From contig NZ_AP019373.1 of the NCBI RefSeq assembly GCF_004323595.1, forward strand, positions 2,046,001 through 2,110,000: DNA of 64,000 nt, read 5' to 3'. The stretch comes from Sulfuricystis thermophila. GTDB lineage: Bacteria > Pseudomonadota > Gammaproteobacteria > Burkholderiales > Rhodocyclaceae. Both the position numbers and the translations under genes were made by a program. A model generated the notes under the pieces. The model was not told where the DNA came from. It saw only the letters and a program-made list of their open reading frames with translations, and ran no database searches. This document shows, piece after piece, positions 861 to 58,961 of this stretch. Position 1 is the stretch's first letter. Each line of letters begins with the position of its first letter.

Positions 861-885
861 AAAATCGGCGCTGGCAGGACGGCAC
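861..885 (+). repeat. Short interspersed repeat, copy 1 (intergenic)
   Basis: 25-bp unit matching the window-wide consensus (A-rich start, core TCGGCGCTGGC, end GGACGGCAC) with one core change (GGCAGGAC for GGCGGGAC). It sits between the stop of the SulP gene at 890 and the start of the SLC13 gene at 841. Confidence 0.75.
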
Positions 886-889
886 CGGT

Positions 890-3025
890 TCACGAGGCAG
901 GGCGCAACAGCGTGCCGGCGGTCTCGATGCCGGCTGCGGCGGCGCGGCGGTAGGCTTCCTCGATCGCGGCATCGGCAGTGCCGAAGACGTTTTCGGCGCC
1001 GATCGCGTCCATCAGCCCGGTGGCTTGCATCACATCGCGCACCTGCTTCTTGAGGCCGCCGAAGAGCAGCGTCACGCCATTGGCGCGCAGGCGTTCGACG
1101 AGATGGTGGATCACCTCTTCGCCCGAGGCATCGAGCTCGTTGATCGCATCGCCGACGACGATCAGGTATTTCATCCGTGGATGCTCGGCCACCGCTTCGA
1201 GCACCGCATCCTCGAACCAGGCGACGTTGGCGAAATAGAGCCGTCCGTCGAAGCGCACCGCGACCACCGTTTTCGATTCCGGCAGACCGGCTACCCGGAT
1301 GTCGCGCAGCGTGCCGTCGGGATGGCGACCGAGAACGGCGACGCGCGGCGTCATCGTGCGGTAGAGGAACAGGCCGATGGCCAGACCGGCGCCGATCAGG
1401 ATGCCCTTGTCGAGATGTGGCGCCACGGCAAGGGTGGCGACGAAGGTGACGATCGCCGCGATGCCGTCGTGCCGACTCGCCTGCCAGGCGTGTTTGATCG
1501 CCGCGAAATTGACGAGCCCCACCACGGCCATGATGATCACCGCCGCCAGGGTCGCCTGCGGCAAGTGATAAAGCAATGGCGTCAGGAACAGCAGCGTGAG
1601 CAGCACGAACAGCGCGGTAAACACCGAGGACATGCCGGTCGCGGCGCCGGCGTTGAGATTGACCGCCGAACGCGAAAACGAGCCGGACACCGGAAAGGCC
1701 TGCGTCAGGCTGCCGACGATGTTGGAGAGCCCCTGACCGACCAGCTCCTGGTTCGGATCGAGCCGCTGTTTGGTCTTCGCCGCCATCGCCTTGGCGATCG
1801 AGATCGCTTCCATGAAGCCGACCAGCGAGATGACGATCGCCGTCGTGAGCAGCGTGCCGAGCATTTCCCAATTCATCTTCGGCAGCGCAAACGACGGCAA
1901 GCCCTCGGGAATCTTGCCGACCACCTGGCCGCCGCCGGAGAGTTTCACCTCGCCCTTCTCGCCATGCACGCCGCGCACGATGCGCCAGCGCAGACCATCG
2001 CCCGTCTCGCCCGGCGGCACCTGGCCATGCGGATGAAAGCGCACCGTGCCATCGGCAGCCATGCCGCGCTCGAAAACGAAGGTGCGCAGCGCACGGCTGC
2101 GCCGGCGGTTTTCCTCCTCGCGGTCCTTGATCTGCAGACGCAACAGTTCGATCTCGTAATTGAGCTCGACGCGTTGCGCCGCCGTCTCATGCGCCGCCTT
2201 GTCGAGCGCCTTCAACGCCGCTGATTTATCGAGCAGCCGGGCATTGAGTTCATGGGTGCGCGTCTCGGCCTGCCGGTACTCTTCGAGCAGCAACCGCACC
2301 CGCTCGTCAGCAATCGCCTCGACGGACACGGCGGCCGTCTTCTCGAAGCCGATCCACCAAGAAAGCGAGGTCGCCAGCACCACGGCGATCAAGACGCCCG
2401 GCCATTTCGGCGCGAAATGGCGAAAGCCCCAGATGACCGCCAATGACCCCAGACCCATCGCCAGCGTCGGCCAGTGGGTGTCGCCGACGAGCTGCAGCAC
2501 GCCCCAGATGTCGGCCAGGAAGGATTCCGAGCGGCCCATCGGCACGCCAAAGAGTTTGTTCAACTGCGACAGGCCGATGATGATCGCCGCGGCGTTGGTG
2601 AAGCCGACGATCACCGGGTGCGAGAGGAAATTCACCACCACGCCGAGCTTGAAGACGCCCAGGACGAGCTGCACCAGACCCACCAACAGCGCGAGCATCA
2701 CCGCCAAGGCGATGAACTGCTCCGACCCTGGCGCGGCAAAAGGAGCGAGCGAGGAGGCGGTGAGCAGGGAGACTACCGCGACGGGGCCCGTGGCGAGCTG
2801 GTTCGAGGAACCCCACAGCGCCGCTACCGCGACTGGCAGGAAGGCCGCATACAGACCGTAATAGGCTGGCAGGCCCGCCAGTTGCGCGTAGGCCATCGAC
2901 TGCGGCACCAGCACGAGGGCGACCGTCAGGCCGGCAATGAAATCGGCGCGCAGCGTTGGGCCGCCATAGGGCAGCCAGCGCAGGAAAGGCAGGAAGCGTT
3001 GCAGGCGAGGATGGGCACTCAGCAT
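890..3025 (-). CDS. SulP-family sulfate/bicarbonate permease with coiled-coil insertion and STAS domain
   Basis: Inner-membrane SulP/SLC26 anion transporter, 711 residues against a usual 550-600. Residues 1-230 give the first half of the membrane domain, including the conserved LVLVPQSMAYAQLAGLP stretch. Residues about 236-366 are an insertion: a highly charged helix (240-312, rich in E, R, K, L) predicted as coiled coil, then a Gly-rich segment. The family motif GKIPEGLPSF resumes at 370 and the second membrane half follows. A STAS domain occupies about 565-700 (DASGEEVI). Substrate may be sulfate or bicarbonate; the nearby CBB genes make bicarbonate possible, but this is inference. The promoter region to the right carries a direct-repeat operator shared with the second sulP gene. 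Confidence 0.88.
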   Translation of the reverse strand: MLSAHPRLQRFLPFLRWLPYGGPTLRADFIAGLTVALVLVPQSMAYAQLAGLPAYYGLYAAFLPVAVAALWGSSNQLATGPVAVVSLLTASSLAPFAAPGSEQFIALAVMLALLVGLVQLVLGVFKLGVVVNFLSHPVIVGFTNAAAIIIGLSQLNKLFGVPMGRSESFLADIWGVLQLVGDTHWPTLAMGLGSLAVIWGFRHFAPKWPGVLIAVVLATSLSWWIGFEKTAAVSVEAIADERVRLLLEEYRQAETRTHELNARLLDKSAALKALDKAAHETAAQRVELNYEIELLRLQIKDREEENRRRSRALRTFVFERGMAADGTVRFHPHGQVPPGETGDGLRWRIVRGVHGEKGEVKLSGGGQVVGKIPEGLPSFALPKMNWEMLGTLLTTAIVISLVGFMEAISIAKAMAAKTKQRLDPNQELVGQGLSNIVGSLTQAFPVSGSFSRSAVNLNAGAATGMSSVFTALFVLLTLLFLTPLLYHLPQATLAAVIIMAVVGLVNFAAIKHAWQASRHDGIAAIVTFVATLAVAPHLDKGILIGAGLAIGLFLYRTMTPRVAVLGRHPDGTLRDIRVAGLPESKTVVAVRFDGRLYFANVAWFEDAVLEAVAEHPRMKYLIVVGDAINELDASGEEVIHHLVERLRANGVTLLFGGLKKQVRDVMQATGLMDAIGAENVFGTADAAIEEAYRRAAAAGIETAGTLLRPAS

Positions 3026-3036
3026 GTCACGAATCT

Positions 3037-3068
3037 CTTCACGCTTGCTTCACGAAGCCAGTGATATT
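3037..3068 (+). promoter_or_regulatory. Predicted response-regulator operator and promoter (direct repeats CTTCACG-N4-CTTCACG, -10 GATATT)
   Basis: Perfect 7-bp direct repeats CTTCACG at 3037-3043 and 3048-3054, one helical turn apart (11 bp), followed 8 bp later by a -10-like GATATT at 3063-3068. The same arrangement (CTTGACG-N4-CTTCACG-N9-GATAAT) lies at 7384-7416. Spacing of this kind is typical of OmpR/PmrA-class operators, and an OmpR-class regulator is encoded between the two sites. It would drive the 88-residue gene and TauE-UspA gene to the right, and could also influence sulP to the left. Confidence 0.5.
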
Positions 3069-3153
3069 ACTCATGCCAGCCGACGTGAGGTTTCGAGGCT
3101 GTTTATCCGGCGATCAGCAGCACCGATCGCCATTTTCATAGCGAGGTCTTGCC

Positions 3154-3420: not shown

Positions 3421-3423
3421 ATC

Positions 3424-5355: not shown

Positions 5356-5360
5356 AGTGA

Positions 5361-5385
5361 GTGCCGTCTCGCCAGCGCCGAGTTT
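5361..5385 (-). repeat. Short interspersed repeat, copy 2 (intergenic)
   Basis: Minus-strand copy (GTGCCGTCTCGCCAGCGCC continuing GAGTTT on the plus strand) in the 61-bp gap between the TauE-UspA stop and the response-regulator start, so it occupies much of that leader. Confidence 0.75.
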
Positions 5386-5416
5386 CGACACGGCGGTCTT
5401 GGGCAATAATGCCGGC

Positions 5417-10044: not shown

Positions 10045-10060
10045 CGATCGGCACGGATGC

Positions 10061-10143
10061 AAAAGTCGGCGCTGGCGGGAAAACGAGAGCGTCCCGCCGG
10101 GCGCCGCCTCGCTTCGAATAGTCGGCGCTGGCGGGACGGCACC
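10061..10143 (+). repeat. Composite interspersed repeat (unit, inverted unit, unit)
   Basis: About 80 bp: a forward unit at 10061-10080, a 10-bp spacer, an inverted unit variant at 10091-10106 (GTCCCGCCGGGCGCCG), a 14-bp spacer and a second complete forward unit at 10121-10143. The first unit and the inverted unit can form a strong hairpin. The same order and near-identical spacing recur inside trpC at 58257-58334. Here it fills most of the gap between two convergent genes, where the hairpin could act as a terminator. Confidence 0.8.
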
Positions 10144-16571: not shown

Positions 16572-17993
16572 TTAGCGATGCTGGACGTCGAGCTTGTCGA
16601 CCACGTCGAACTCGAACTTGATTTCCTTCCAGGTTTCCATCGCCACCTTCAGTTCGGGGCAAGACTTCGCCGCGTTGGTGAGGATGTCCTTGCCTTCCTT
16701 CTCGAGCTGACGGCCTTCGTTTCTCGCCTGCACGCAGGCTTCCAGCGCCACGCGGTTGGCGCAGGCGCCGGCAGCGTTGCCCCAGGGGTGCCCCAGCGTG
16801 CCGCCGCCGAACTGCAGCACCGAGTCGTTGCCGAAGATCGACACCAGCGCCGGCATGTGCCAGACGTGGATGCCACCGGAAGCGACCGGCATGACCCCCG
16901 GCATCGGGCCCCAGTCCTGGTCGAAGAAGATGCCCTTGGAGCGATCGGCCTTGATGTAACGGTCACGCATGATGTTGATCCAGCCGATGGTCGCCTCACG
17001 ATCGCCTTCGAGTTTGCCGACGACGGTGCCGGAGTGCAGGTGGTCACCCCCCATCAGACGCAGCAGCTTGGTCAGCACGCGGAAGTTGATGCCGTGATGC
17101 GGATTGCGGTCGATCACGGCGTGCATCGCGCGGTGCACATGCAGCAGCATGCCATTGTCACGGCACCACTTGGACAGCGAGGTGTGGGCCGCCCAGCCGA
17201 CGGTCAAATAGTCGGACATGATGATCTTCGAGCCGATTTCCTTGGCGAACTCGGCGCGCTTGTAGATTTCCTCCATCGTCGGCGCGGTGACGTTGAGGTA
17301 ATGCCCTTTGCGCTCGCCGGTTTCCTTTTCGGCCTTTTCGATCGCTTCCTGGCAGAACAGGAAACGGTCGCGCCAGCGCATGAAGGGTTGCGAGTTGACG
17401 TTCTCGTCGTCTTTGGTGAAATCGAGGCCGCCGCGCAAGCACTCATAGACGGCACGGCCATAATTCTTGGCCGACAGCCCCAGCTTCGGCTTGATCGTGC
17501 AGCCCAACAGCGGCCGGCCATACTTGTCGAGCTTGTCGCGCTCGACCTGGATGCCATGGGGAGGCCCGGGACAGGTGGTGACGAACCACAACGGGAAGCG
17601 CACGTCCTCCAGTCGCAGCGAGCGCACCGCCTTGAAACCGAACACGTTGCCGACCAGCGAGGTGAACACATTCACCACCGAGCCTTCCTCGAACAGATCC
17701 ATCGGATAGGCGATGAAGGCGTAGAACGCTTCATCTGAACCTGGCACGTCTTCGATCGCATAAGCGCGGCCCTTGTAATATTCGAGGTCGGTGAGCAGAT
17801 CGGTCCACACGGTGGTCCAGGTCGCCGTCGAGGATTCCGCGGCCACTGCCGCGGCGGCTTCTTCGCGCGGCACCCCAGGCTGGGGCACCACCTTGAACAC
17901 GGCGAGGATGTCGGAATCCTTCACCTGGTAATCCGGCTGCCAGTACATCGTGCGGTACTCTTTGACGCCGGCGTCGTATTTCTTTGCGGCCAT
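16572..17993 (-). CDS. cbbL: RuBisCO large subunit, form IA
   Basis: 473 residues, complete. Catalytic elements: TIKPK with the active Lys168, the carbamylated Lys194 with Asp196 and Glu197 ([10 protein letters not shown]), the His pair region [11 protein letters not shown], and loop 6 [10 protein letters not shown]. Fixes CO2 on ribulose-1,5-bisphosphate. Sequence and linkage to cbbQ and cbbO mark it as form IA of the non-carboxysomal (IAq) type; no carboxysome genes are seen in the window. First gene of the operon, divergent from cbbR, and so presumably activated by CbbR. Confidence 0.97.
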
Positions 17994-19024: not shown

Positions 19025-19042
19025 GTTCGCCAGCGCCGACTT
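19025..19042 (-). repeat. Short interspersed repeat, copy 4 (degenerate)
   Basis: Minus-strand copy retaining the core CGCCAGCGCCGACTT but diverged at its outer end. It fills the region between the cbbR stop and the adenosyltransferase ATG at 19049, where a ribosome binding site would be expected. Confidence 0.6.
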
Positions 19043-19048
19043 GCAAAA

Positions 19049-19600
19049 ATGGGCTACCGACTTTCCAAAATCTACACGCGCACCGGTGATGCCGGCACCA
19101 CGGGTCTCGGCGACGGTTCACGTGTCAACAAGGATGCGCCGCGCATCTCGGCGCTGGGCGACGTCGACGAACTGAATGCCGTCATCGGCCTGCTGCTCTG
19201 CGAGGAGCTGCCGATCGAGGTGCGCACGCTGCTCATCGGTGTGCAGCATGATCTCTTCGATCTCGGCGGCGAGCTCTCCGTGCCCGGCGGCGCCTTTCTC
19301 AAGGACACACAGCCGGCGCGGCTGGAAGACGCGATCGACCGCTTCAATGCGGAACTCGCGCCCCTCAAGGAATTCATTCTGCCGGGCGGCACACGCGCCG
19401 CGGCACTGACCCACCTCGCACGCACCGTCTGCCGCCGCGCCGAGCGCGCGGTGGTCACGCTCGCCCAGCACGAAACGGTGAGCGAGGCCGCGCGCCAGTA
19501 TCTGAACCGCCTCTCCGATCTCCTTTTCGTGCTCGCCCGCTGGCTCAACCGCCATGCCGGACATGGCGATGTGTTGTGGCAGAAGGGGCTCAACGCCTGA
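19049..19600 (+). CDS. PduO-type cob(I)alamin adenosyltransferase
   Basis: 183 residues. Adenosylates cob(I)alamin to make coenzyme B12. Family signature at the N-terminus (KIYTRTGDAGTTGLGDGSRV, ATP-binding), DVDELNAVIGLL, and the C-terminal RTVCRRAERAVV with the conserved Arg/Glu. Full length. No convincing Shine-Dalgarno sequence precedes the ATG; the 25 bp upstream are taken up by an interspersed repeat. It follows cbbR by 33 bp and may be read through from it. Confidence 0.93.
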   Translation: MGYRLSKIYTRTGDAGTTGLGDGSRVNKDAPRISALGDVDELNAVIGLLLCEELPIEVRTLLIGVQHDLFDLGGELSVPGGAFLKDTQPARLEDAIDRFNAELAPLKEFILPGGTRAAALTHLARTVCRRAERAVVTLAQHETVSEAARQYLNRLSDLLFVLARWLNRHAGHGDVLWQKGLNA

Positions 19601-21068: not shown

Positions 21069-22594
21069 GACCTATCCGGGAAATAACGGTCGCAGAAGTA
21101 GCAGCCGGTGAGCGGCAGCCACGCCGGCACCGCATAATACTGGCGGCGGATCGCATCCAGCACCGTGTCGCGGTAGCTGGCATAGTCGAAGCCCTCGCCG
21201 CGCACCACCCAGAAGCGCGCGCCGCGGTATTCGAAGTCGTCGATCGAAACGCGGCGGAACCAGCCGTCGTATTCGCCCGGATTGGGTGCGGTCTTGCGCA
21301 GCACGGTGATGTCGCGGCCATCCAGCTCACGCCAGTCGGTGAGGATGTCGTCATGGCGCGCATGTCCCGACCCGGGGCCGAGCACCGGCACGTGACGGCG
21401 CTGCTGGTAGCCGAGGATCGCCGCATTCGAATAGCCGTCCGAGGCGAGCAGGGTTGCGCCGATGTGCGCCCGTTCGACCAGCTGTCGCCCATCGAAGGTC
21501 AGCACCATGCTCGGATAGACATTCAGCGAACGCCAGGTTTCCAGCGGCAGGCTGGCCAGCACCGCTAACAGCACGACATGCAATGCGGCGAAGCCGGCGC
21601 AAAACCGCACGAGCTTTTCCAGCGCGCCAGACGCGCCGTGGCGCACCACCAGCAGCAGCGCGAATGGCACGAAAGACAGGGCCCAGTGCAGACCAATGGT
21701 CTTGAAGAACGACAGCAGGGCGAACAGCATCAGCGGCACCGCGGCGAGCAAGCTCAAGCTGCGCTCGGTCGCAGATTCGGCGCTGGTGACACGGCACTCG
21801 GACACCTTCCGCCACAATATCCAGACGGCCAAGGGCGTCAGCACATAGAGCAGCGTCACGAGATACAGCAGCGGTGTCCGCAAATTGAAGCCGGTATTCG
21901 CCCCGCTGTGACGATTGACGAAGTTGAACAGATAGTTCGTCCAGCAGTGCCCGCTGTTCCACCAGGCCATCAGCCCCAGCGCCGGAATGCAGCAGGCATA
22001 GACGATGGCGAGCCCACGCCATGCCGACGCTCTCTGCCGGCGCAACGCATCGACCAGATAACTGAAACCGAGCAGCGCGGCGAAGTATTTGGACAGCACG
22101 GCACCGGCGAGCAGCAGCCCGGCGAGCAGGTACCAGCGCCAGACGCCGGCCTCGCCAGCCTCCTCGCCGCGCACCGCGCGCAACCAGGCGAGCCCGGAAA
22201 GCACCGCGCAATAGACCAGCGCGGTATCGGTGGTGACCAGCACGTTCCAGACGAAGGGTGGCGCGAGCAGGATCAACGACGCCACTGCATCGCGCTGCCC
22301 AGCCGCCTGCGGAAAGAGGCGGGGCCAGGCCAGGCGTACCGCAAGAGCGAGCAGCAGCGGCTGGACGATCTGCGGCAGGCGCAGCCACCCTGCCGCATCG
22401 CTCACCGTCAGCAGTGCGGCGAGCCACCAGCCGATCATCGGCGGGTGATCGTAGAACCCCCAATCGGGCTGCCGTCCCCACCAATAGAAATACGCCTCGT
22501 CGCCGGTCATCGGCAAGGCTGCGGCCAGCCAGAATCGGAAAATGAGCGTCAGCCCGGCGGCGGCGAGGAAAAAGCGGCCGGACGTGATGGGCAT
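21059..22594 (-). CDS. ArnT/PMT-like membrane glycosyltransferase
   Basis: 511 residues from the ATG at 22592-22594, polytopic. N-terminal acidic catalytic motif in LPMTGDEAYFYWWGRQPDWGF followed by YDHPPMIGW, as in ArnT/GT83 and related GT39 enzymes, which move a sugar from a polyprenyl phosphate to lipid or protein in the periplasm. About 11 hydrophobic helices precede a soluble C-terminal domain. A degenerate interspersed repeat lies in frame near residue 267. Co-transcribed with the UbiA-like gene, which may make its lipid-linked donor. Confidence 0.82.
   Translation of the reverse strand: MPITSGRFFLAAAGLTLIFRFWLAAALPMTGDEAYFYWWGRQPDWGFYDHPPMIGWWLAALLTVSDAAGWLRLPQIVQPLLLALAVRLAWPRLFPQAAGQRDAVASLILLAPPFVWNVLVTTDTALVYCAVLSGLAWLRAVRGEEAGEAGVWRWYLLAGLLLAGAVLSKYFAALLGFSYLVDALRRQRASAWRGLAIVYACCIPALGLMAWWNSGHCWTNYLFNFVNRHSGANTGFNLRTPLLYLVTLLYVLTPLAVWILWRKVSECRVTSAESATERSLSLLAAVPLMLFALLSFFKTIGLHWALSFVPFALLLVVRHGASGALEKLVRFCAGFAALHVVLLAVLASLPLETWRSLNVYPSMVLTFDGRQLVERAHIGATLLASDGYSNAAILGYQQRRHVPVLGPGSGHARHDDILTDWRELDGRDITVLRKTAPNPGEYDGWFRRVSIDDFEYRGARFWVVRGEGFDYASYRDTVLDAIRRQYYAVPAWLPLTGCYFCDRYFPDRSCR
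21773..21797 (+). repeat. Short interspersed repeat, copy 5 (inside the glycosyltransferase gene)
   Basis: Degenerate copy with the core ATTCGGCGCTGGTGACACGG. In the gene's frame it encodes CRVTSAES; this is the one coding copy not in the preferred reading frame. It falls in a loop after a hydrophobic helix. Confidence 0.55.
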
Positions 22595-22601
22595 CGGTCG
22601 C

Positions 22602-23717
<1,116 letters not shown>

Positions 23718-25163: not shown

Positions 25164-25193
25164 GGGGTTGGGTCGAATGCAGGATGTGGCGCC

Positions 25194-25218
25194 GTGCCGT
25201 GTCGCCAGCGCCGAGTTT
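25194..25218 (-). repeat. Short interspersed repeat, copy 6 (intergenic)
   Basis: Minus-strand unit (GTGCCGTGTCGCCAGCGCC then GAGTTT) in the gap between the nit stop (25238) and tldD start (25163), in the tldD leader. Confidence 0.75.
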
Positions 25219-25237
25219 GGGGAATATGGGGGCAAAT

Positions 25238-32578: not shown

Positions 32579-33829
32579 ATGCCCGTCAACTACCTCACCC
32601 CTTCGCCCGATCAACTGTTTCCCGTCGCCGGCGTGCGGCTCGGCACGGCGGAAGCCGGCATCCGCAAGGCCAAGCGCCGCGATCTGACGCTGATCACCCT
32701 CGCGCCCGGCAGCCGTGTCGCCGGCGTATTCACGCAGAACCGTTTCTGTGCCGCGCCGGTGCAAGTTTGTCGCGAGCATCTGAAGCAGGCAGGCATCCGC
32801 GCGTTGGTGATCAACACCGGCATCGCCAACGCCGGCACCGGCGAGGCGGGACTCGCCGCCGCCCGACAGTCCTGCGCCGCGGTGGCGAAATTGCTGGACT
32901 TGCGCGCCGAACAAGTTTTGCCCTTTTCCACCGGCGTGATCCTCGAACCCTTGCCGGTCGAGCGCCTGAAAGCGGGCCTGCCCGCCGCGCTCGCCGCCCT
33001 GAAAGCGGATGGCTGGTATGAGGCCGCGCATGCGATCATGACCACCGACACCGTCGCCAAGGCCGCCAGCCGCAAAGTCGGCGCTGGCAGCACGGCAGCC
33101 GTGATCACCGGCATCGCCAAGGGCGCCGGCATGATCCGGCCGAACATGGCGACGATGCTCGGCTTCATGGCCACCGACGCAGCGATTGCGCAGCCGATGC
33201 TGGAACGCCTCGTCAAGGAGGCGGCCGACGAATCCTTCAACTGCATCACCGTCGATGGCGACACCTCGACCAACGACTCCTTCGTGCTGATCGCCACGGG
33301 ACAAGGCGCGGCGAAATTTGAAAGCGTCGACGCGCCGGGCTGGGCCGAATTCAAGCAGGCGGTGATCGACGTCGCACGCGAGCTCGCGCAGGCGATCGTG
33401 CGCGACGGCGAAGGCGCATCGAAATACATCGAAATCAGCGTCGCCGGCGGCCGCTCGCTGGCCGAATGCAAGGCGGTCGGTTATGCGATCGCCCATTCGC
33501 CGCTGGTGAAGACCGCCTTCTTCGCCTCCGACCCGAACCTCGGCCGCATCCTCGCCGCGATCGGCTATGCCTGGAACAATGATCCGGCGCTCGGCGATCT
33601 CGACGACACGAAAGTGAGGGTTTGGCTGGCGAGCGGCGGCGAGGAAGTGCTCGTCGCCGAAAACGGCGGCCGCGCGGCGAGCTACCGTGAGGAAGACGGC
33701 GCGCGCGTCATGAAGGCCGCCGAGATCCGCGTGCGCATCGATCTGGGCCGCGGCAGCCAGACAGCCAAAGTCTGGACCTGCGATCTCAGTTATGACTACG
33801 TCAAGATCAATGCCGACTATCGCAGCTGA
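32579..33829 (+). CDS. argJ: ArgJ, bifunctional ornithine acetyltransferase/N-acetylglutamate synthase
   Basis: 416 residues. Recycles the acetyl group in arginine biosynthesis. The self-cleavage site is intact: the nucleophile Thr in [17 protein letters not shown]. Substrate-binding TSTNDSFVL and the C-terminal [15 protein letters not shown] are normal. Start ATG follows GGAG and sits 2 bp after the glnE stop. Residues 166-173 (KVGAGSTA) are encoded by an interspersed repeat unit just before the TGIAKGAGM motif; length there matches other ArgJ proteins as far as I can recall, so the repeat appears to have replaced rather than lengthened the segment. Confidence 0.95.
33074..33097 (+). repeat. 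Short interspersed repeat, copy 7 (in frame in argJ)
   Basis: AAAGTCGGCGCTGGCAGCAC then GGCA, two or three bases from consensus, encoding KVGAGSTA in the argJ frame. Confidence 0.65.
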
Positions 33830-38022: not shown

Positions 38023-39506
38023 ACGAAGCCGATTTCGACCGTCTGGCCCAAAAGGGCTACAACCGCATCCCCGTCACCCTCGAGACCTTCGCCGATCTCG
38101 ACACCCCGCTGTCGATCTATCTCAAGCTCGCCGATGGCCCGCACTCGTATCTGCTCGAATCGGTGCAGGGCGGCGAGCGCTTCGGCCGCTACTCGTTCAT
38201 CGGGCTCACCACGCCGACGCGCATCGCCGTGACCGGCTCGACGATTCTGCTGCTCACCGGCAACCGCGTCGCCGAACGCCGCGAGCACACCAACCCGATG
38301 TCCTACCTCTCGGAATTCATGGCGCGCTTCAAGGTGCCGGACATTCCCGGCCTGCCGCGCTTCACGGGCGGACTGGTCGGCTATTTCGGCTACGACACGG
38401 TGCGCTACATCGAACCGAAGCTCGCCGATACGCAAAAGCCCGATCCGCTTGGCGTACCGGACATCCTGCTCTTGCTCTCCGAGGAAATCGCCATCGTCGA
38501 CAACCTCTCGGGCAAGCTGACCCTCGTCGTCTATGCCGAGCCGGGCTTTCCCGGCGCCTGGCGCCAGGCCCAGGCGCGCCTCAAAGAATTGCTCGGCCGC
38601 CTGCGCGCGCCGGTCAAGCTGCCCGAGGATACCCGTGCCGTACCGCCAGCGCCGAGTTTCGAATTCGCCGAACAGGACTTCAAGACCGCCGTGCGGCGTG
38701 CCAAGCAATACATCGTCGATGGCGACATCATGCAGGTGGTGCTCTCGCAGCGCATGAGCCGCCCCTATGCGGCGAGTCCCCTGGCGCTCTACCGCGCCTT
38801 GCGCACGCTCAACCCCTCGCCCTACATGTTCTTCTTCGACTTCGGCGATTTCCAGGTCGTCGGTGCCTCGCCGGAAATCCTCGTGCGCCTCGAAACGGAA
38901 GACGGCAAACGCAAAATCACGGTGCGGCCGATCGCCGGCACCCGCAAGCGTGGCGCGAATGCCATCGAGGACGCGCGGCTCGCTGCCGAGCTCTTGGCCG
39001 ATCCAAAGGAGCGCGCCGAACATCTGCAACTATTAGACCTCGGCAGGAACGACGTCGGCCGCGTCGCCAAGATCGGCACGGTCAAAGTCACCGACCAATA
39101 CACCATCGAACGCTACTCGCACGTGATGCACATCGTCTCCAACGTCGAAGGCGAGTTGAAGGACGACGAAGGGCCCGTCTCGGTGCTCAAAGCCACCTTC
39201 CCGGCCGGCACCGTCTCCGGCGCGCCGAAGGTGCGCGCTATGGAGATCATCGACGAGCTGGAACCCACCAAGCGCAGCATCTATGCCGGTGCGGTCGGCT
39301 ATCTGGGCTTCAATGGCGACATGGATCTGGCCATCGCCATCCGCACCGCGGTCGTCAAGGACGGCCGCATCTTCGTGCAGGCCGGCGCCGGCATCGTCGC
39401 CGATTCCGATCCGGAGGCCGAATGGCAGGAAACACTCAACAAGGCAAGAGCGCAACTGAAAGCCGCCGACATGGCCGAATGCGGACTCGATACCCGTTTC
39501 GACTGA
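38019..39506 (+). CDS. trpE: Anthranilate synthase component I
   Basis: 495 residues. Chorismate to anthranilate with TrpG. N-terminal Trp-feedback region with LLESVQGGERFGRYSFIG, and C-terminal chorismate domain with GDIMQVVLSQRM, RPIAGTRKRG, DLGRNDVGRV and FPAGTVSGAPKVRAMEII. Residues about 206-214 (RAVPPAPSF) between the two halves come from an interspersed repeat. Its partner genes trpGDC, normally next, are 16.5 kb away. Confidence 0.95.
   Translation: MNEADFDRLAQKGYNRIPVTLETFADLDTPLSIYLKLADGPHSYLLESVQGGERFGRYSFIGLTTPTRIAVTGSTILLLTGNRVAERREHTNPMSYLSEFMARFKVPDIPGLPRFTGGLVGYFGYDTVRYIEPKLADTQKPDPLGVPDILLLLSEEIAIVDNLSGKLTLVVYAEPGFPGAWRQAQARLKELLGRLRAPVKLPEDTRAVPPAPSFEFAEQDFKTAVRRAKQYIVDGDIMQVVLSQRMSRPYAASPLALYRALRTLNPSPYMFFFDFGDFQVVGASPEILVRLETEDGKRKITVRPIAGTRKRGANAIEDARLAAELLADPKERAEHLQLLDLGRNDVGRVAKIGTVKVTDQYTIERYSHVMHIVSNVEGELKDDEGPVSVLKATFPAGTVSGAPKVRAMEIIDELEPTKRSIYAGAVGYLGFNGDMDLAIAIRTAVVKDGRIFVQAGAGIVADSDPEAEWQETLNKARAQLKAADMAECGLDTRFD
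38635..38659 (-). repeat. Short interspersed repeat, copy 8 (in frame in trpE)
   Basis: Minus-strand unit in a plus-strand gene: GTGCCGTACCGCCAGCGCC then GAGTTT. Encodes AVPPAPSF in the linker between the two TrpE subdomains. Confidence 0.75.
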
Positions 39507-40995: not shown

Positions 40996-41369
40996 ACGGC
41001 GCGACGCTTCCCTGGCTCGTGCTCGAAGGGCTCACGCTCGTCGAACACGGCATCACGCTGGTTGCCGACATCGATGCGAAACTCGGCGCTGGCAGGACGG
41101 CAATCCTCGGCCCCAACGGCGCCGGCAAGAGCACTCTGCTGCGCCTGATGCATGGGCTATTGCGCCCCAGCGCCGGGCGCGTGATCTGGTCGCGGCCGCT
41201 GACGCAGGGCATGGTGTTCCAGCGTCCGGTGATGCTGCGCAGCCGCGTCGCTGAAGAGGTGATCTATCTGGAAAGCGGCCGCCTCGTCGAACAGACCCCC
41301 GCCGCGGAATTCTTCCGCCAGCCGCGCACAGCGGCAGCGCAAGCGTTCATCGCCGCGGAAATCGGCTGA
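40992..41369 (+). CDS. tupC: Tungstate-type ABC ATPase with large internal deletion (probably non-functional)
   Basis: Only 125 residues where 220-250 are expected. It keeps Walker A (GPNGAGKST), the Q-loop (GMVFQRPVMLRSRVAEE) and the normal C-terminal tail (VIYLESGRLVEQTPAAEFF), but the region between is gone: no LSGGQ signature, no Walker B, no D-loop or H-loop. The frame is kept, so the deletion is a multiple of 3, roughly 100-110 codons, joining at SRVAEE/VIYLES near 41254. Without those motifs ATP hydrolysis should be lost, and the transporter would need another ATPase. Residues 30-37 are encoded by an interspersed repeat beside Walker A. Confidence 0.8.
   Translation: MNGATLPWLVLEGLTLVEHGITLVADIDAKLGAGRTAILGPNGAGKSTLLRLMHGLLRPSAGRVIWSRPLTQGMVFQRPVMLRSRVAEEVIYLESGRLVEQTPAAEFFRQPRTAAAQAFIAAEIG
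41079..41102 (+). repeat. Short interspersed repeat, copy 9 (in frame in tupC)
   Basis: AAACTCGGCGCTGGCAGGAC then GGCA, about 22 of 24 matches to consensus, encoding KLGAGRTA directly before the Walker A motif. Confidence 0.65.
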
Positions 41370-43630: not shown

Positions 43631-44104
43631 TCACCACTCGCGATAGGGCACGCCGTTGAGGCCAATCGCGGTCGAGCGGGAGAAAACATCGAAGACGTCC
43701 TCGCCCTCCTGCGGCGCATCGGGCTCGCTCGCATAGCTGCGCTTGCCCCAGGTCGCCACCGCTTCGACGCTTGGATCGGGGTACAACGGATCGCGGGGCA
43801 GGCGGCGCAGGAAATAGAGCTTGCGGCGGCGCACATCTTTCGCATCCTCGACGCCGGCGACCAGTGCTTCGAGATTCGGCGGATAGCCGCTCGCGCCCGC
43901 GGGCAGCACGATGCGCCCTTCGTCGGCGGCCCACTTGTAGGCATCGATCGCATCGCGGATCTCGCGCAGGGCGCGGCGCAGTTCCTGTTCCTTCTGGCGC
44001 TGCTGCGATACCTCGGCGAGCGGCAGTGCGATGCCGGCGAGCACGCCGAGGATCGCCAGCACGGCGACCAGCTCGATCAGCGTGAAGCCTCGGACGCGTT
44101 TCAT
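43631..44104 (-). CDS. GspG-like pseudopilin
   Basis: 157 residues. Prepilin signature MKRVRGFTLIELVAVLAILG with Glu at +5, long N-terminal helix with the charged QRQKEQELRRALREIRDAI, and a C-terminal domain with YPPNLEALVAG and LRRLPRDPLYPD. Second of three pseudopilins in this cluster plus GspG at 50716. The start overlaps the secretin stop by 4 bp (ATGA). Confidence 0.83.
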   Translation of the reverse strand: MKRVRGFTLIELVAVLAILGVLAGIALPLAEVSQQRQKEQELRRALREIRDAIDAYKWAADEGRIVLPAGASGYPPNLEALVAGVEDAKDVRRRKLYFLRRLPRDPLYPDPSVEAVATWGKRSYASEPDAPQEGEDVFDVFSRSTAIGLNGVPYREW

Positions 44105-45921
44105 CGGGGCGTCGTTTCACCGCCCGCCGGTGCCTGCTGCGCCGGCGCCGGCACGACTTCGGTATAGGCGGAGAGGTCGGCCGCCGGCGCACGCAGGTTG
44201 CCTTCCGGCCCGGAATCGAATTCGCTGCGTGCCAGCGTGGGACGCGTCATGCCCCGCACCAGCCGCGGCGTGATCGACAGCATCAGCTCGGTCTTCTGAC
44301 CGTCGTCGGTGCGGCCGCCGAACAGGCGGCCGAGGACGGGAATCTCGCCCAGGCCCGGCACCTTGTTCGCTGTGGCGCGCTCGGCATCGCTGATCAGGCC
44401 GGCGAGCACCTGATTCTCGCCATCACGCAGGCGCAGCACCGTCGAGGCATTGCGCGTGCCGATCTGGTAGGCGAGCGTGCCGGTCTTGGTCTTCACCTGG
44501 TCGACGATGTTGCTGACTTCCAGGTTGATGCGGATGGCAATCTCGTTGTCGAGATAGATGGTGGGCTGCACTTCGAGCTTCAGGCCGACATCGACATACT
44601 GCACCGATTCGGCGACGAAGCCGGTCGCGGTGGCGGTGGTGGTGATATTCGGCACCCGGTCGCCGATCATGATCTTGGCCGTCTCGCGATTGCGGGTGCG
44701 GATGCGCGGGTTGGCGAGCAGGTTGATGTCGGTGTCGCCCTGGCCGGCCGAGACGGTGAGCGGCGTGATCGCCGCGCCGAGCGTGCGCGAGCTGGCATTC
44801 TTGATGTCGGCGAGTGTCAACAGGCCGTTCGCCGCGCTGGCGAGCGGCGTCAGCGTCAGCAGGTCGGGCCAGCGGATGCCCAGATCGAGCAGGCGGCTAC
44901 GTTTCACTTCGAGGATCTCGACTTCGAGCATCACTTCCGGTTCGGGCAGGTCATGCACCGCGAGCAGCTTGCCGGCGAGACGGATGGTTTCGGGCGTATC
45001 GCGCATCACCAGCAGGTTCTGCTTTTCGTCGGCGACGACATCCTTGGCCTTGAGGATGGTACGCAGCGTCGCCAGCGCGATCTTCGGTTCGGTGTTGGCG
45101 AGGTAGAAGGTCTTGATCGTCAAGGGCTGATGCTCGCGCGCCTTGGCCGGTGTGTTCGGATAGACGAGGATGGTGCCGTCATCGAGGGTGCGCCGTTCGA
45201 GCTGATGCGCCAACAGCACCGCATTGAGAATCTCCTTCACCGTCGCGCGCCGCAAGTAGATCGTCGTCGGCGCATCGGGCCGCACATCCTTGTCGAATAC
45301 GAAGTTGATGCCGGAAGTGCGCGCCAGCACCTCGAAAACCTGTTTCAGCGAGGCTTCCTTGAATTCGATCGATACTGGACGGGCGAGCGCATCGCCGAGC
45401 TTCGGATCGCCCTCCGGCTGTGCCGTCGCCAGCGTCGCCTCGATGGTCTCGCGCAGCTTGAGTGCGGCGGCATCGTGCGGCGCTTCGACGAGGATCTCGC
45501 GCAGACGGGACAGCGCGGCTTCGGCATCGCCGCGCGCCCAGGCAGCCTCCGCTTCGGCCAGCCATTGCGTACGGCGCCGTTCCAGGCGGGCGGCTTCGGC
45601 AAGCTTGCGGGCGCGCTCGTTGGCTGGATCGAGCGCCAGCACCCGCGCGAGCAGCGCATCGGCCTCGGCGCGACGCCCGGCGCCGATCGCCTGCTCGGCC
45701 TCACGCAGCCAGTGCGCCGCGATACGCTCGCGCGTCGTCGCCACGGCCATGCGCGTCTCGGCCCGGTTTGGCTCCTCACGCAACGCGGCCTCGAAATGCG
45801 GCAACGCTTCTTCGAGCCGGCCCTGCTCGGCGAGGCGGCGACCTTCCTGCAAGGGCGCCGAGGTCGTCGCACAGCCGGTGAGCAAGGCAATGATGGCGAA
45901 TAATGCGGCGCGGCGGTTCAT
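44101..45921 (-). CDS. Secretin (GspD/PilQ-like) lipoprotein with N-terminal TPR-like region
   Basis: 606 residues. Lipoprotein signal ending in the lipobox LLTGC. About 25-160 is a TPR-like helical region (repeated A-x-x-L/A-A patterns) in place of the usual N0 start, then an STN/N-domain (SLKQVFEVLARTSGINFVF), N1-type KIALATLRTILKAKDVV, and the secretin barrel (AGQGDTDINLLANPRIRTRN, VGLKLEVQPTIYLDNE, VPGLGEIPVLGRLFGG). Forms the outer-membrane channel. The TPR-plus-secretin form resembles MSHA MshL/PilQ-type proteins more than classical GspD. Confidence 0.86.
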   Translation of the reverse strand: MNRRAALFAIIALLTGCATTSAPLQEGRRLAEQGRLEEALPHFEAALREEPNRAETRMAVATTRERIAAHWLREAEQAIGAGRRAEADALLARVLALDPANERARKLAEAARLERRRTQWLAEAEAAWARGDAEAALSRLREILVEAPHDAAALKLRETIEATLATAQPEGDPKLGDALARPVSIEFKEASLKQVFEVLARTSGINFVFDKDVRPDAPTTIYLRRATVKEILNAVLLAHQLERRTLDDGTILVYPNTPAKAREHQPLTIKTFYLANTEPKIALATLRTILKAKDVVADEKQNLLVMRDTPETIRLAGKLLAVHDLPEPEVMLEVEILEVKRSRLLDLGIRWPDLLTLTPLASAANGLLTLADIKNASSRTLGAAITPLTVSAGQGDTDINLLANPRIRTRNRETAKIMIGDRVPNITTTATATGFVAESVQYVDVGLKLEVQPTIYLDNEIAIRINLEVSNIVDQVKTKTGTLAYQIGTRNASTVLRLRDGENQVLAGLISDAERATANKVPGLGEIPVLGRLFGGRTDDGQKTELMLSITPRLVRGMTRPTLARSEFDSGPEGNLRAPAADLSAYTEVVPAPAQQAPAGGETTPR

Positions 45922-46391
45922 TCCTTGGCTTCTCCGATGTCGAGGGTTTGGCGCATCTGGCGCCTGAGATGCTGCAGGGTCATGAGCGGCGGCTGGATCG
46001 AGGCGATGCGGTAGGTTTCGTCGAGGGTATCGCCGACGCGCACGATACGGGTTTCCTCGCCGCGCGCCAGGAACACGCACCAGCCCTCCTGTTCGTCATA
46101 CTGCTTGCCGATCACGCGCCACGGCAGAGTGTGGGCAAGACTCGGCGCTGGCGAAGCGGCACGCGGCGGATCGGTCTGGGCGGTCGTTGGGTCGGCCGGC
46201 AGTCTTGCCGCAGGCGCAAACGGATTACCGATCGCCGCGGGCACGTTTTGACGTGGCGCAAGGGCACGGACATAGGGCAGACGTTCCGTAGCCACGGCTG
46301 GCGACGGCGGCGTGGATGCCTGCCCATAGGCCGCCAAGAGCGCCACCGCGACCAACACGAAAAGGAGCCAGGGCAGGCGCGACGATGTCAT
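45918..46391 (-). CDS. GspC/PilP-like inner-membrane protein
   Basis: 157 residues. N-terminal transmembrane anchor (WLLFVLVAVALLAAYG), a Pro/Ala-rich linker, then a small beta domain (LPWRVIGKQYDEQEGWCVFL, IVRVGDTLDETYRI) like the homology region of GspC/PilP, which contacts the secretin. Part of the linker, AASPAPSL at about 78-85, is encoded by an interspersed repeat. The start overlaps the PilO-like gene and the stop overlaps the secretin start. Confidence 0.7.
   Translation of the reverse strand: MTSSRLPWLLFVLVAVALLAAYGQASTPPSPAVATERLPYVRALAPRQNVPAAIGNPFAPAARLPADPTTAQTDPPRAASPAPSLAHTLPWRVIGKQYDEQEGWCVFLARGEETRIVRVGDTLDETYRIASIQPPLMTLQHLRRQMRQTLDIGEAKE
46137..46162 (+). repeat. Short interspersed repeat, copy 10 (in frame in the GspC/PilP-like gene)
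   Basis: Plus-strand unit in a minus-strand gene: GACTCGGCGCTGGCGAAGCG then GCAC. On the coding strand it encodes AASPAPSL, the same antisense frame used in trpE. Confidence 0.65.
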
Positions 46392-47379: not shown

Positions 47380-47987
47380 GCCGCCGCCACCTCCGCGAGC
47401 GGCCCGACGACCACCGGGCGTGGGCACGCGCCCGACAGCCCGGCCTGGCGGCAGTCGCGCCGCAACAGCGTGGCGAAATCGGCCTTACTGCGATCGAGCG
47501 GCGGATGGACCCGGACATTGCGCCAGAGGCCGTCGACGATCAAACCGATCGTCGTGCTGTCGGCCTCCGCGAGACAAAACGCCGCCGTCCGTTCCAGTCG
47601 GCGGCAATGCCGGTTGTAGGCACGCACGAACCGCGGCTGGATACGCCGTGGCCGCCAGCCGCGCTCGGCCGCCTGACGCGGCAGATCGACGGCCACCGTC
47701 GCCGGCAGGGCGCAGGCCAGCCAGGCGCGGCTGGCAGGATCGGGATCGTAACGGATCACCCAGCGGCCAGGGTCTTCGCCGAAGATCGCGGCAAAACATT
47801 CCGCGGCATAAAGATCGAGCTCGTGTGCGCTGGCCAGCCCAGCGGGGCAGTCGAGGATCCAGTAACGTGCCAGCGCATCGGAAACGCAGATGTCGAGCGC
47901 TGCACCGGCGCGCGGCGGAGCGTCGAGCGGCACTGCGCCGCGCCGCGGGACGAAGAGTTCGGCGGGTTCAGCTCTGAAGCGTGACAC
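47376..47987 (-). CDS. Cytoplasmic protein in the PilM/GspL position
   Basis: 203 residues, no clear family match. No membrane helix. Contains several conserved-looking segments (DICVSDALARYWILDC, AERGWRPRRIQPRFVRAYNRH, STTIGLIVDGLWRNVRVH) suggestive of part of an actin-like fold such as PilM/GspL but shorter. The gene sits exactly where pilM would be in a pilMNOPQ array. It overlaps gspE by 20 bp and the next gene by 4 bp. Function inferred from position only. Confidence 0.55.
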   Translation of the reverse strand: MSRFRAEPAELFVPRRGAVPLDAPPRAGAALDICVSDALARYWILDCPAGLASAHELDLYAAECFAAIFGEDPGRWVIRYDPDPASRAWLACALPATVAVDLPRQAAERGWRPRRIQPRFVRAYNRHCRRLERTAAFCLAEADSTTIGLIVDGLWRNVRVHPPLDRSKADFATLLRRDCRQAGLSGACPRPVVVGPLAEVAAA

Positions 47988-49539
47988 GCGCCACCTCTTC
48001 GAGAGTCGTCTGGCCAGTACGGGCCAGTTGCAGGGCGGCGTCGCGCAGGCTCAACATGCCCTGGCGGCGCGCTTCGGCCTTGATCTCGGCCAGCGGCGCC
48101 CGTTGGGCTATCAGGGCGCGCAGGCGATCGTCGAGTGCCAGGATCTCGGCGACCGCCCGACGGCCCCGATAGCCGGTGCCGCGACATTCGCCACAGCCCT
48201 TGCCCCGGCGCAGGCCGGCGAATTCGGCGCTGGCGGTCTCCGGGGGCAGGCGTAGTGTGGCGAGTGCGCGTGGAGAAGGCGCCACGGCTTCGGCGCAATG
48301 CGGGCAGACGGTGCGCAGCAGGCGCTGCGCCCAGACGCCATTGAGCGCCGAAGTCAGGGCATAGGGATCGATGCCCAGATGGGCGAAGCGGTTGAAGACG
48401 TCGAAGACGTTGTTGGCATGCACCGTCGAGAGCACCAAATGGCCGGTGAGCGCCGACTGCACGGCGATCTCGGCGGTCTCGGCGTCGCGGATCTCGCCGA
48501 TCATGATCTTGTCGGGGTCGTGGCGCAGGATCGAGCGCAGGCCACGGGCGAAAGTGAGCCCCTTCTTTTCGTTGACGGGAATCTGCAGCACGCCGGCCAG
48601 CTCGTATTCGACGGGGTCTTCGATGGTGACGATCTTGTCCTGGCCGGTGTGGATCTCCGATAGCACGCCATACAGGGTCGTCGTCTTGCCGCTGCCGGTC
48701 GGGCCGGTGACCAGCAGCATGCCGTAAGGCAGCGCCGCCAACGCACGGATCTGAGCCAGTTCGTCGGTCGCGAAGCCGAGCCGATCGAGACTGAGCGTTT
48801 CGCCATCGGCCACCAGCCGGCGCTTGTCGAGGATGCGCAGCACGGCATCCTCACCGTGGAGGCTCGGCATGATCGACAGCCGCAGATCGACGCGGCGACC
48901 GGCGAAGCGCACCGCGAAGCGGCCGTCCTGCGGGATGCGCCGTTCGGCGATGTCGAGCTCGGCGAGCACCTTGAGGCGTGAGATCGCCTGTTCGGCGGTG
49001 TCGCGGCCGGAGGCTTCGCCGATGCGTTCGAGCACGCCATCGATGCGGTAACGCACGACGAGGCCCTGCGGCGTCGCCTCGAGATGGACGTCGCTGGCAC
49101 CGAGCCGCAGCGCATCGTGCAGCGTCGAATTGATGAGGCGCACGACCGGGCTGTCGTCGCGCGGCAGCGCACTCACCGCGACTTCCTTTTCAGCGGGTGC
49201 CGTCCCGCCAGCGCCGACTTTCTGCGTGGCGATGTCCGCCAGCGCCGAGGCCGTTTCCATCTGCTTGTCGAACCAGGCGCTGAGATCGTCCGGAGCGACG
49301 AGATACCATTCGACCGGCCGGCCGGCGCGGGCCTCGAGCCAACGCTGCCGGTCGGCGTCGAGCGGGTCGTCGCACACCCCGATCAGCTGCCGGCCATCAC
49401 GCAACAACGCGCAGCGCCGCACGCGGGCCTCGGCGAGCGGCACGCGTCCGAACAGCGGCTGCAGCCGGTGCAGCTGAAACAGCGTCAGCACCGTGAAATC
49501 GGCGCCTGCCCAAACCCGGACATCGTCGGGCGCGTTCAT
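47968..49539 (-). CDS. gspE: GspE/PilB-type secretion ATPase
   Basis: 523 residues. N-terminal GspE domain about 15-90, a linker, then the full ATPase: Walker A GPTGSGKTTTLY, Asp box TIEDPVEYE, Walker B IMIGEIRDAETAE, His box LTGHLVLSTVHANN and a zinc site CPHCAEAV...GCGECRGTGY. All catalytic residues are intact, unlike its paralogue at 41382. Residues 107-114 (KVGAGGTA) of the linker come from an interspersed repeat. Drives pseudopilus assembly. Start overlaps the gspF stop by 4 bp. Confidence 0.92.
   Translation of the reverse strand: MNAPDDVRVWAGADFTVLTLFQLHRLQPLFGRVPLAEARVRRCALLRDGRQLIGVCDDPLDADRQRWLEARAGRPVEWYLVAPDDLSAWFDKQMETASALADIATQKVGAGGTAPAEKEVAVSALPRDDSPVVRLINSTLHDALRLGASDVHLEATPQGLVVRYRIDGVLERIGEASGRDTAEQAISRLKVLAELDIAERRIPQDGRFAVRFAGRRVDLRLSIMPSLHGEDAVLRILDKRRLVADGETLSLDRLGFATDELAQIRALAALPYGMLLVTGPTGSGKTTTLYGVLSEIHTGQDKIVTIEDPVEYELAGVLQIPVNEKKGLTFARGLRSILRHDPDKIMIGEIRDAETAEIAVQSALTGHLVLSTVHANNVFDVFNRFAHLGIDPYALTSALNGVWAQRLLRTVCPHCAEAVAPSPRALATLRLPPETASAEFAGLRRGKGCGECRGTGYRGRRAVAEILALDDRLRALIAQRAPLAEIKAEARRQGMLSLRDAALQLARTGQTTLEEVARVTLQS
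49197..49221 (-). repeat. Short interspersed repeat, copy 11 (in frame in gspE)
   Basis: Exact consensus on the minus strand (plus strand GTGCCGTCCCGCCAGCGCC then GACTTT), same orientation as the gene, encoding KVGAGGTA in the linker between the N-terminal and ATPase domains. Confidence 0.8.
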
Positions 49540-52897: not shown

Positions 52898-52932
52898 TCC
52901 CGAGCCGGCCGATTCCTTACGATTGCGGCGCC

Positions 52933-55981: not shown

Positions 55982-56059
55982 ACCCGGGGTGCCACGGTGC
56001 CCGCTTCTGAGGGAAAATGGCGATTTCGCATCATGACCCGACCGGAAAGCGGACATCCC

Positions 56060-56626: not shown

Positions 56627-56627
56627 C

Positions 56628-57659: not shown

Positions 57660-57686
57660 AATCGACCCATCCTTCAGATTGTCGCC

Positions 57687-57932
57687 ATGCAATATTCCAT
57701 ACTCATCGAAGCCGTCACCGATCCGGACTTTCCGCCAGGGTATTACTACGCGCATATTCCGGCCCTCGACCTGACCACCCACGGCCTGGGCATCGATGGG
57801 GCCAAGGCGGCCGCGCGCGAGTTGCTCACGGCGTGGGTCGAAGAAAGAAAGGCTCGCGGCGAGCCGATTCCTCGCGAGATGGATTCGTATTTCGCGCACG
57901 TCGAACTCGACGATGCCCTGGTCGGCACGTGA
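57687..57932 (+). CDS. hicB: HicB-family antitoxin
   Basis: 81 residues. HicB/UPF0150 N-terminal fold: [20 protein letters not shown] with the [19 protein letters not shown] pattern and the following helix [16 protein letters not shown]. Short form without a C-terminal DNA-binding domain. Neutralises HicA. The toxin gene overlaps its last 20 bp. It lies inside the trp operon between trpD and trpC. Confidence 0.8.
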
Positions 57933-58119
57933 AATCCTGCGCCGCCTGTTGCGCGCCGGTTTCGTCGAGGTGCGGCAGACTGGCTCGCACAAGATTTTGC
58001 GTCATCCGGATGGCCGAATGACTTACATTGCAATGCATCCGGGTGACGTGCCAACTGGCACCTTTCGCAGCATACTCAAGCAGGCCGGCCTCAGTCCTGA
58101 GGAATTCAACCGTTTATGA
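57913..58119 (+). CDS. hicA: HicA-family mRNA interferase toxin
   Basis: 68 residues. Double-stranded RNA-binding-like HicA fold: [23 protein letters not shown] with the catalytic His26 (GSHKI), a basic RHPDGR loop, IAMHPGD and [16 protein letters not shown]. Cleaves mRNA when free of HicB. Its stop codon overlaps the trpC start (ATGA), so toxin translation and trpC translation are coupled. The antitoxin-first order is one of two known hic arrangements. Confidence 0.82.
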
Positions 58120-58961
58120 GCGATATCCTGAACAAGATCCTCGCCGCCAAACGCGCGGAAGTCACCGCCGCGCAAGCCGCCAAGCCACTCGCAGCGGTCC
58201 GCGCCGAGGCCGAGGGTCAGCCGGCTCCGCGCGACTTCGTTGGCGCGATCCGCGCAAAAATCGGCGCTGGCGGGAATGAGGACGTCCCGCCGGGCGCCGA
58301 CTCAACTCGCAAAGTCGGCGCTGGCGGGACGGCAGTGATCGCCGAAATCAAAAAGGCCAGCCCCTCGAAAGGCGTGATCCGGCCGGATTTCCGTCCTGCC
58401 GAGATTGCTGCGGATTATGAGCGCCATGGCGCCGCCTGTCTGTCGGTGCTCACCGACCGGCAATTCTTCCAGGGCGCGCCCGAATATCTGCAGCAAGCCC
58501 GCGCCGCCTGCTCTCTACCGGTGCTGAGAAAGGACTTCATCATCGACCCGTATCAGGTCTATGAAGCCCGTGCGATGGGGGCGGATGCGATCCTCTTGAT
58601 CGTCGCCGCACTCGAAGACAGCCAGATGCGCGAACTCGAAGACCTCGCGCTCTCGCTTGGTATGGCCGTCTTGGTCGAAAGTCATGACGCGGGCGAAGTC
58701 GACCGCGCGCTCAAGCTCAGGACGCCACTCGTCGGCATCAACAACCGCAACCTGCGCAGCTTCGAGGTGAGCCTCGATACCACACTCGCGCAGCTTCCCC
58801 GCATCCCGTCAGACCGCATCGTCGTCACCGAATCCGGCATCCTGCAGCCCAGCGATGTCGCGCTGATGAAGGCGCATGGGGTGCATGCCTTCCTGGTCGG
58901 CGAAGCCTTCATGCGCGCGCCCTCGCCCGGCGCTGAACTCGCGCGGCTGTTCCAGATGTAA
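58116..58961 (+). CDS. trpC: Indole-3-glycerol phosphate synthase with repeat-encoded insertion
   Basis: 281 residues; usual length is about 260-268. Catalytic Lys and Glu motifs are intact: [40 protein letters not shown] and VTESGI. Residues about 48-73, between the N-terminal helix and the first barrel strand, are encoded by the composite interspersed repeat and account for the extra length (KIGAGG, then a Pro/Asp-rich stretch, then KVGAGGTA). The insertion leaves the barrel in frame and probably forms a surface loop near the active-site entrance. Followed by an intrinsic terminator. Confidence 0.94.
58257..58334 (+). repeat. Composite interspersed repeat inside trpC
   Basis: 78 bp: forward unit at 58257-58275, 8-bp spacer, inverted unit GTCCCGCCGGGCGCCG near 58284-58299, 14-bp spacer and an exact forward unit at 58314-58334. 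Same structure as 10061-10143, but read through in frame as protein. Confidence 0.85.

Follow-up and report, generated by a model that had tools for sequence, protein, structure and literature searches.

The stretch of Sulfuricystis thermophila DNA analysed here (the window, 64,000 nucleotides, positions 2,046,001 to 2,110,000 of contig NZ_AP019373.1) carries many copies of a 25-bp word, which is probably a DNA uptake sequence (DUS), that is, a self-recognition tag for natural transformation resembling the DUS and uptake signal sequences (USS) of other bacteria. We favour this interpretation because the word shares many of the properties reported for the neisserial DUS. Some copies are extended by a second, 54-bp palindromic unit. 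Together, the two may represent a third self-DNA code of transformation, with a two-part 25-bp word found in a family other than Neisseriaceae or Pasteurellaceae, in seven genera and in several dialects, and a protein-inserted palindromic element that targets this word as a parasite of a mating signal. We incline slightly towards this combined reading.

In the complete genome of the organism (G000, 2.74 Mb), 502 copies of the word were counted with at most 3 mismatches of 21. They are shared evenly between the forward (252) and reverse (250) strands, while the reversed pattern used as a control gave 0 matches. The word was then characterized in a 479-kb sample of this genome, composed of the window, twenty spaced 20-kb stretches and stretch L033. 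This sample contained 96 copies with at most 4 mismatches, from which a 25-position matrix was built (top score 42.2), and 98 copies with a matrix score of at least 20, the threshold for a copy. The consensus in G000 is AAASTCGGCGCTGG followed by 4 variable positions and ACGGCAC, and the alignment of the 96 copies reads AAA-S-TCGGCGCTGG-YRRV-ACGGCA-C. The edges of the word are sharp at 25 bp, and the flanking bases are random. Conservation is lower at positions 11-14 than elsewhere and both boxes are nearly fixed, showing that variation is position-specific. The 25-mer itself is not palindromic.

Placement was evaluated for the 98 copies with a simple gene caller, which misplaced a few of them (e.g. 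those at 5361, 25194 and 41079 of the window). Forty copies are genic in the same direction as the gene, 29 genic and antisense, 23 intergenic and 6 at a gene edge. Hence, 69 of 98 lie within predicted genes. These results bear out an earlier note on the window, which had described a dense repeat family present on both strands and often inside genes, with a copy number far beyond chance. Since 90.5% of the sample is predicted to be coding, the 23 intergenic and 6 edge copies, set against 9.5% of noncoding DNA, correspond to an intergenic enrichment. Coding copies occupy permissive sites: they encode few and mild types of peptide, including KSALAGRQ, and the two other frames are used by only 4 of 69. 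With half copies inside composites excluded and gaps cut at the stretch ends, spacing is more even than random, with none of 77 gaps below 500 bp against about 7 expected and a coefficient of variation of 0.64. No strand preference was observed relative to local GC skew (48 to 50). A strand-biased segregation motif or a Chi-like motif was rejected on this absence of strand bias.

The word was then searched for in related bacteria. With the core pattern, 18 of the 19 genomes of the genus (G000 included) and 2 of 18 genomes from other genera of the family were rich. A wider survey covered 395 sampled genomes of the family with a dialect-tolerant pattern, a rich genome being one with at least 250 matches (tallied by eye from the table). 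Fifty-five genomes from seven genera reached this level: 18 of 19 in genus g1, 21 of 22 in g2 (the remaining one, G277, has 97 matches), all 9 in g88, all 4 in g70, and the single genomes of g9, g62 and g69. Intermediate counts were found in g11 (up to 82), g47 (up to 92), g90 (up to 64), g15 (37), g80 (34) and g17 (up to 31). G194, like G277, retains few copies. The remaining genomes have at most about 24 matches, and reversed controls reach 20. Three g19 genomes (G036, G394 and G402), otherwise near background, have a small number of perfect matches to the dialect pattern, which are either relics or recent imports.

One member of the genus, G006, gave 9 matches with the dialect pattern and 0 with the core pattern, which is background. 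Its position was examined in an IleS tree built from this one gene in 48 genomes; deep branches of the tree are unsafe, since some rows that belong to other families are placed within this one. Thirteen of the 15 rich rows form one group with a support of 86/87, which is not strong; G006 lies inside this group and pairs with G000 (99/97) on a long branch. The two g88 rows fall apart from the rich group, and the rich label requires at least 3 changes on the tree. Because G006 is nested in the rich clade and paired with G000, yet stands at background, it has most likely lost the word. A k-mer search of 116 kb of G006 found no other dialect.

The spelling of the word differs between species and genera and is coherent within each genome sampled (3 to 26 copies per genome, picked with the pattern at 3 mismatches or fewer). 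Copies in G000 end in ACGGCAC, while G005 has ACGGTG in 6 of 8 copies, G017 has GGCGGC in 7 of 7 and G086 has TCGACGCTGG in 3 of 3. The spelling in G026 is TCGGYGCTGG...ACGGCG, and the ending ACGGCG is common to g2, g62, g70 and g88. Such differences are also visible at shared sites. In an alignment of the trpE site from 18 genomes, the word is present in most of them; at the same aligned place, G017 has its own ending, GGCGGCG, while the copy in G005 is weak and ends in ACGGTG. The core is broken in G004, and G006 is wordless at equal length. Similarly, G006 and G010 are wordless at equal length at the argJ site.

In 421 pairwise comparisons at 42 sites, where the same orthologous position can enter more than once, from different genomes, the word was shared in 301 (176 of them indel-free), weak in 59 (42 indel-free) and absent in 61. 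The absent cases comprise 13 without indels, 13 with small indels, 12 with a length difference of about 25 nt and 23 that differ otherwise. All 12 of the former class, and 21 of the 23 of the latter, are from trpC or from the argJ linker of G014. The word is thus gained or lost in place, without insertion, at a few positions (absent at argJ and trpE, weak and indel-free in 42 of 421 comparisons), and we read these alignments as indicating gain and decay by substitution on those few positions. The earlier note had reasoned that finding the unit equally often at the same sites in distant orthologues would speak against a spreading repeat. This was observed in part, within the genus only, where many sites are shared, which argues for a maintained recognition word rather than a mobile unit.

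At some loci the word is part of a larger composite, in which a half word is followed by an ATGARRA-like spacer, an inverted arm CGTCCCGCCGGGCGCCG, a short spacer and a full-length word. The composite unit measures 54 bp (56 at one intergenic locus). Matches to the arm with at most 3 mismatches numbered 68 in G000, 61 in G002, 25 in G004 and 14 in G007, against 0 to 19 in the other genomes, where the counts in G005 (19, control 13), G017 (12, control 9) and G018 (10, control 4) resemble background. We examined 27 composite loci of G000, 6 taken from the spaced sample and the window and 21 chosen among peptide matches. In 26 of them the composite, of 1 to 3 units, opens with a half word and closes with a full-length word. 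Eighteen of the 27 loci are inside predicted genes, among them murA, ribD, trpC and metH, and 9 outside. Ten composite gene loci were submitted to Pfam; one had no match and the other nine matched MltA, RibD, NnrS, an AMP ligase, an enolase-type enzyme, Tex, a CobB/CobQ-type protein, the EPSP-synthase family and a part of methionine synthase. NCBIfam identified MurA, RibD, TrpC, ArgJ and TrpE above cut-off, and MetH, being partial, below it. A palindromic 54-bp unit built from the word thus occurs within existing words in four species (G000, G002, G004 and G007), in frame when genic, as comparison of occupied and empty sites in two genes shows.

Relatives provide the empty sites. In MurA, the site is 36 bp long in G004, which has a plain word, and 144 bp in G000 and G002 (+108); in TrpC, it is 21 bp in G001 and G015, again with the plain word, and 75 bp in G000 and G002 (+54). 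Since murA and trpC lengths with and without the unit differ in this way, the unit entered existing words by 54 bp or a multiple of it. A long hairpin is formed by the arm together with the full word, with z-scores of -3.8 for trpC and -4.4 for the consensus, and the hairpin of the intergenic composite is unexceptional (z -1.1). The composite therefore shows the palindromic structure, in-frame genic insertion and empty sites of Rickettsia palindromic elements (RPE). The comparison with RPE proposed in the earlier note consequently holds for the composite, which accounts for 2 of its twelve loci and lies in frame in conserved enzymes, and fails for the 25-mer.

The composites could also be ordinary local tandem duplications around a word, with no spreading element. 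The arrays are indeed made of head-to-tail 54-bp units, and the copies in G002 murA share private variants. In this array (L267), all three word copies carry GCTGCC, a sign of local homogenisation. However, a nearly identical spacer and inverted arm are found at the 27 loci of G000 examined, with 68 arm matches genome-wide, and high arm counts are limited to four species. We therefore judge local duplication quite improbable: recurrence of spacer and arm at so many loci implies that the unit was copied between loci. Our guess is that words on incoming DNA recombine with those of the resident chromosome and that the unit then expands in tandem.

The genes of transformation were also surveyed. 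ComEC was found in 57 of 58 genomes tested and is missing in G018, an 83%-complete genome. Among 61 relatives, the ComP_DUS pilin family (PF16732) has a match in 53, irrespective of whether they carry the word, and the matches inspected are minor pilins; the family thus failed as a discriminating marker of the receptor. The minor-pilin genes adjoin an ispH-like gene (by eye) in G000, G001, G002, G006 and G019. The charge of the minor pilins, compared by eye at 19 loci, did not separate word-bearing from other genomes, and a PDB search with the first 62 residues of the pilin returned generic pilins only. Wordless G006 keeps both ComEC and minor-pilin genes, and a loss of its word through loss of ComEC was not supported, ComEC being intact.

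If the word is an uptake tag, as we think probable, it would be bound on outside DNA by a receptor at the cell surface, for which a type IV minor pilin is the most likely candidate. The bound parts of this bipartite word would be the A-tract with TCGGCGCTGG and, after four free bases, ACGGCAC. Tagged fragments would be pulled in and would recombine at homologous loci. Since uptake would favour tagged alleles, point mutations by which a word arises or improves would increase in frequency wherever the protein or spacer tolerates them, and the words of each species would follow the taste of its own receptor, giving rise to dialects. The sequences themselves show the abundance, strand balance, position-specific conservation and dialects of the word, its gain or loss in place at a few sites, mild peptides in genes, even spacing and the loss in one species; receptor, uptake and drive are what we infer.

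Several observations weigh against an uptake tag. With about 1 copy per 5 kb, the word is sparser than the uptake sequences known to us, and it is also longer. No word-specific receptor was found by the PF16732 search of 61 genomes, and ComEC is present in wordless G006; together with the lack of a discriminating pilin, this counts against a simple story. The 13 absent, indel-free comparisons all come from G006, at two positions (argJ and trpE). Linker lengths also vary: the murA linker is 36 bp in wordless G006 and in word-bearing G004, G014 and G015 and 18 to 66 bp in other relatives, and the trpC linker is 21 bp in G006, G001 and G015 and up to 54 bp in others. These varying lengths and the small number of positions narrow the evidence for change in place and slightly lower our confidence. 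Finally, the sole zero-copy stretch among the twenty of 20 kb (L066, G000:C1:1870001-1890000) resembles by eye a copper/heavy-metal resistance island. Zero copies there fit an exclusion of the word from foreign DNA, weakly so with one stretch of twenty, and L063, a stretch of housekeeping genes, holds only one copy.

In the main rival explanation, the word is bound by a chromosome-organising or segregation protein for which about 500 evenly spaced sites are required, and its dialects arise by co-evolution with this protein. Even spacing, dialects and loss in one species would also fit such an intracellular, trans-acting DNA-binding protein. On the other hand, the word has no orientation relative to replication, as seen from its balance of 48 to 50 on local skew, and copies are kept at a cost in protein sequence in, for example, argJ, trpE and murA. 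We know of no chromosome protein with a 25-bp site of more than 30 bits in hundreds of copies, although no search for such a gene was made. We regard this explanation as unlikely.

Less probable still is a mobile miniature repeat inserting as a 25-bp unit, whether RPE-like or similar to the repetitive extragenic palindromic (REP) sequences and bacterial interspersed mosaic elements (BIME), as the earlier note had suggested. The high copy number, the two composite loci of the window and the 37 of 421 comparisons in which an absent or weak word goes with a larger length difference would be expected of it. This explanation is largely contradicted by the equal lengths of argJ and trpE with and without the word, at which unit insertion of the 25-mer was thus not supported, motif-less G006 being equal in length to its word-bearing relatives. 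Moreover, trpC and the argJ linker of G014 account for 33 of the 35 absences that come with a larger difference in length, variation is position-specific and dialects differ at shared sites. The agent is lacking as well: a search for Y1_Tnp, the domain of the REP-associated tyrosine transposases (RAYT) that the earlier note had proposed to look for, found no match in the complete genome of G000, nor in G002, G004 or G007. In the genus as a whole, 5 of 19 genomes have a Y1_Tnp match. A REP/BIME mobilised by RAYT was rejected for G000.

PMC12616744 (2025) names Neisseriaceae and Pasteurellaceae as the only families known to have such uptake motifs, and presents the receptor of the USS as predicted only. 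According to PMC3630211, the neisserial DUS, whose receptor is ComP, is likewise over-represented, occurs at permissive genic and intergenic sites and has dialects that follow phylogeny. It differs in being 10-12 bp long with about 900 to 5900 copies, compared with the bipartite 25 bp and about 500 copies of the word, and its conserved CTG core is not found at the matching place in the word (same source). The USS of Pasteurellaceae differs in sequence and belongs to another bacterial family. It resembles the word as an abundant, evenly spread sequence with an A-rich side and an extended consensus longer than its core. The reverse complement of the word shares TGCCGTC with the AT-DUS, which may be chance.

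Among repeats, RPE resemble the 54-bp composite in being palindromic and in frame inside conserved enzymes. The composite differs from them in sitting in one target, the uptake-like word, in forming 54-bp tandem arrays and in carrying copies of the word. REP/BIME similarly have hundreds of short interspersed copies, whereas the word is non-palindromic and mostly in predicted genes, with no RAYT in G000. A search of the literature, excluding most subscription papers and all preprints, recovered neither the core sequence nor an uptake word for Rhodocyclaceae, Rhodocyclales, Betaproteobacteria or Burkholderiales; the papers that did come up concerned meningococcal mutants or Pasteurellaceae.

According to PMC12616744, uptake words are known from only two families, which limits inference on why such words evolve. 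A third case, if true, would make it possible to follow across a tree how such codes originate, change dialect and decay, since it would combine a longer word in two parts with seven rich genera, further genera that have few copies, and a recent loss in G006. G006 would be a natural test case for how they die. The uptake-tag reading also predicts which environmental species can be transformed and the tag that each would require. Should the 54-bp element spread by way of the tag, this would be an unusual route for selfish DNA and a source of new segments for enzymes such as MurA.

A plasmid search gave only weak matches, in 20 records with E values of 0.1 or worse. A scan of genome contigs with a long pattern matched a single metagenome-assembled genome. 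In IMG/VR, 28 viral contigs (L218-L245) match a 25-base form of the word exactly, L224 at four places; they are either phage of these hosts or host DNA.

Within the window, the unit is present, whole or in part, at all twelve loci listed in the earlier note. The locus at 19025 is a half copy and those at 10061 and 58257 are the beginnings of composites. Eleven copies are full (score of at least 20). The copy at 861..885 (+, score 39.1 of 42.2) is intergenic, beside the SulP gene 890-3025(-) identified by NCBIfam. That at 5361..5385 (-, 40.3) is probably intergenic, just ahead of a response-regulator gene (by eye); the minus-strand gene to which the gene caller assigned it is likely spurious. 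A diverged copy at 46138..46162 (+, 29.1) lies upstream of gene 44101-46080(-). The copy at 25194..25218 (-, 38.7) is just upstream of the TldD-matching part of the tldD frame 23718-25235(-); as the TldD match starts only at residue 35 of the frame, it is probably intergenic.

Other full copies lie within genes. A diverged motif at 21773..21797 (+, 30.8) is antisense within predicted gene 21059-22693(-). The motif in argJ (NCBIfam) at 33074..33098 (+, 36.7) is translated as KVGAGSTA, and the one in trpE (NCBIfam) at 38635..38659 (-, 37.7), which is antisense, as RAVPPAPS. At 41079..41103 (+, 36.5), the motif encodes KLGAGRTA, ahead of the Walker A in an ABC-transporter ATPase (by eye; frame 40668-41369(+)). 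The perfect motif at 49197..49221 (-, 42.2) is within the gene of a GspE/PilB-type ATPase, 47968-49539(-), with an NCBIfam match below cut-off. The first composite consists of a half motif, spacer and inverted motif arm at 10059..10117 (+), intergenic with a unit spacing of 56 bp, closed by a full motif at 10118..10142 (+, 38.6). The second is a 54-bp in-frame unit of the same order at 58257..58310 (+, spacing 54) in trpC (NCBIfam), closed by a full motif at 58311..58335 (+, 39.5) that is translated together with the unit. The half copy at 19025..19050 (-, ends approximate) consists of the first half of the motif, as seen by sequence, and was missed by the matrix at a score threshold of 14.

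The window also contains a RuBisCO large-subunit gene at 16572-17993 (NCBIfam) with a CbbQ-like gene nearby (by eye), which suggests that the host is an autotroph.

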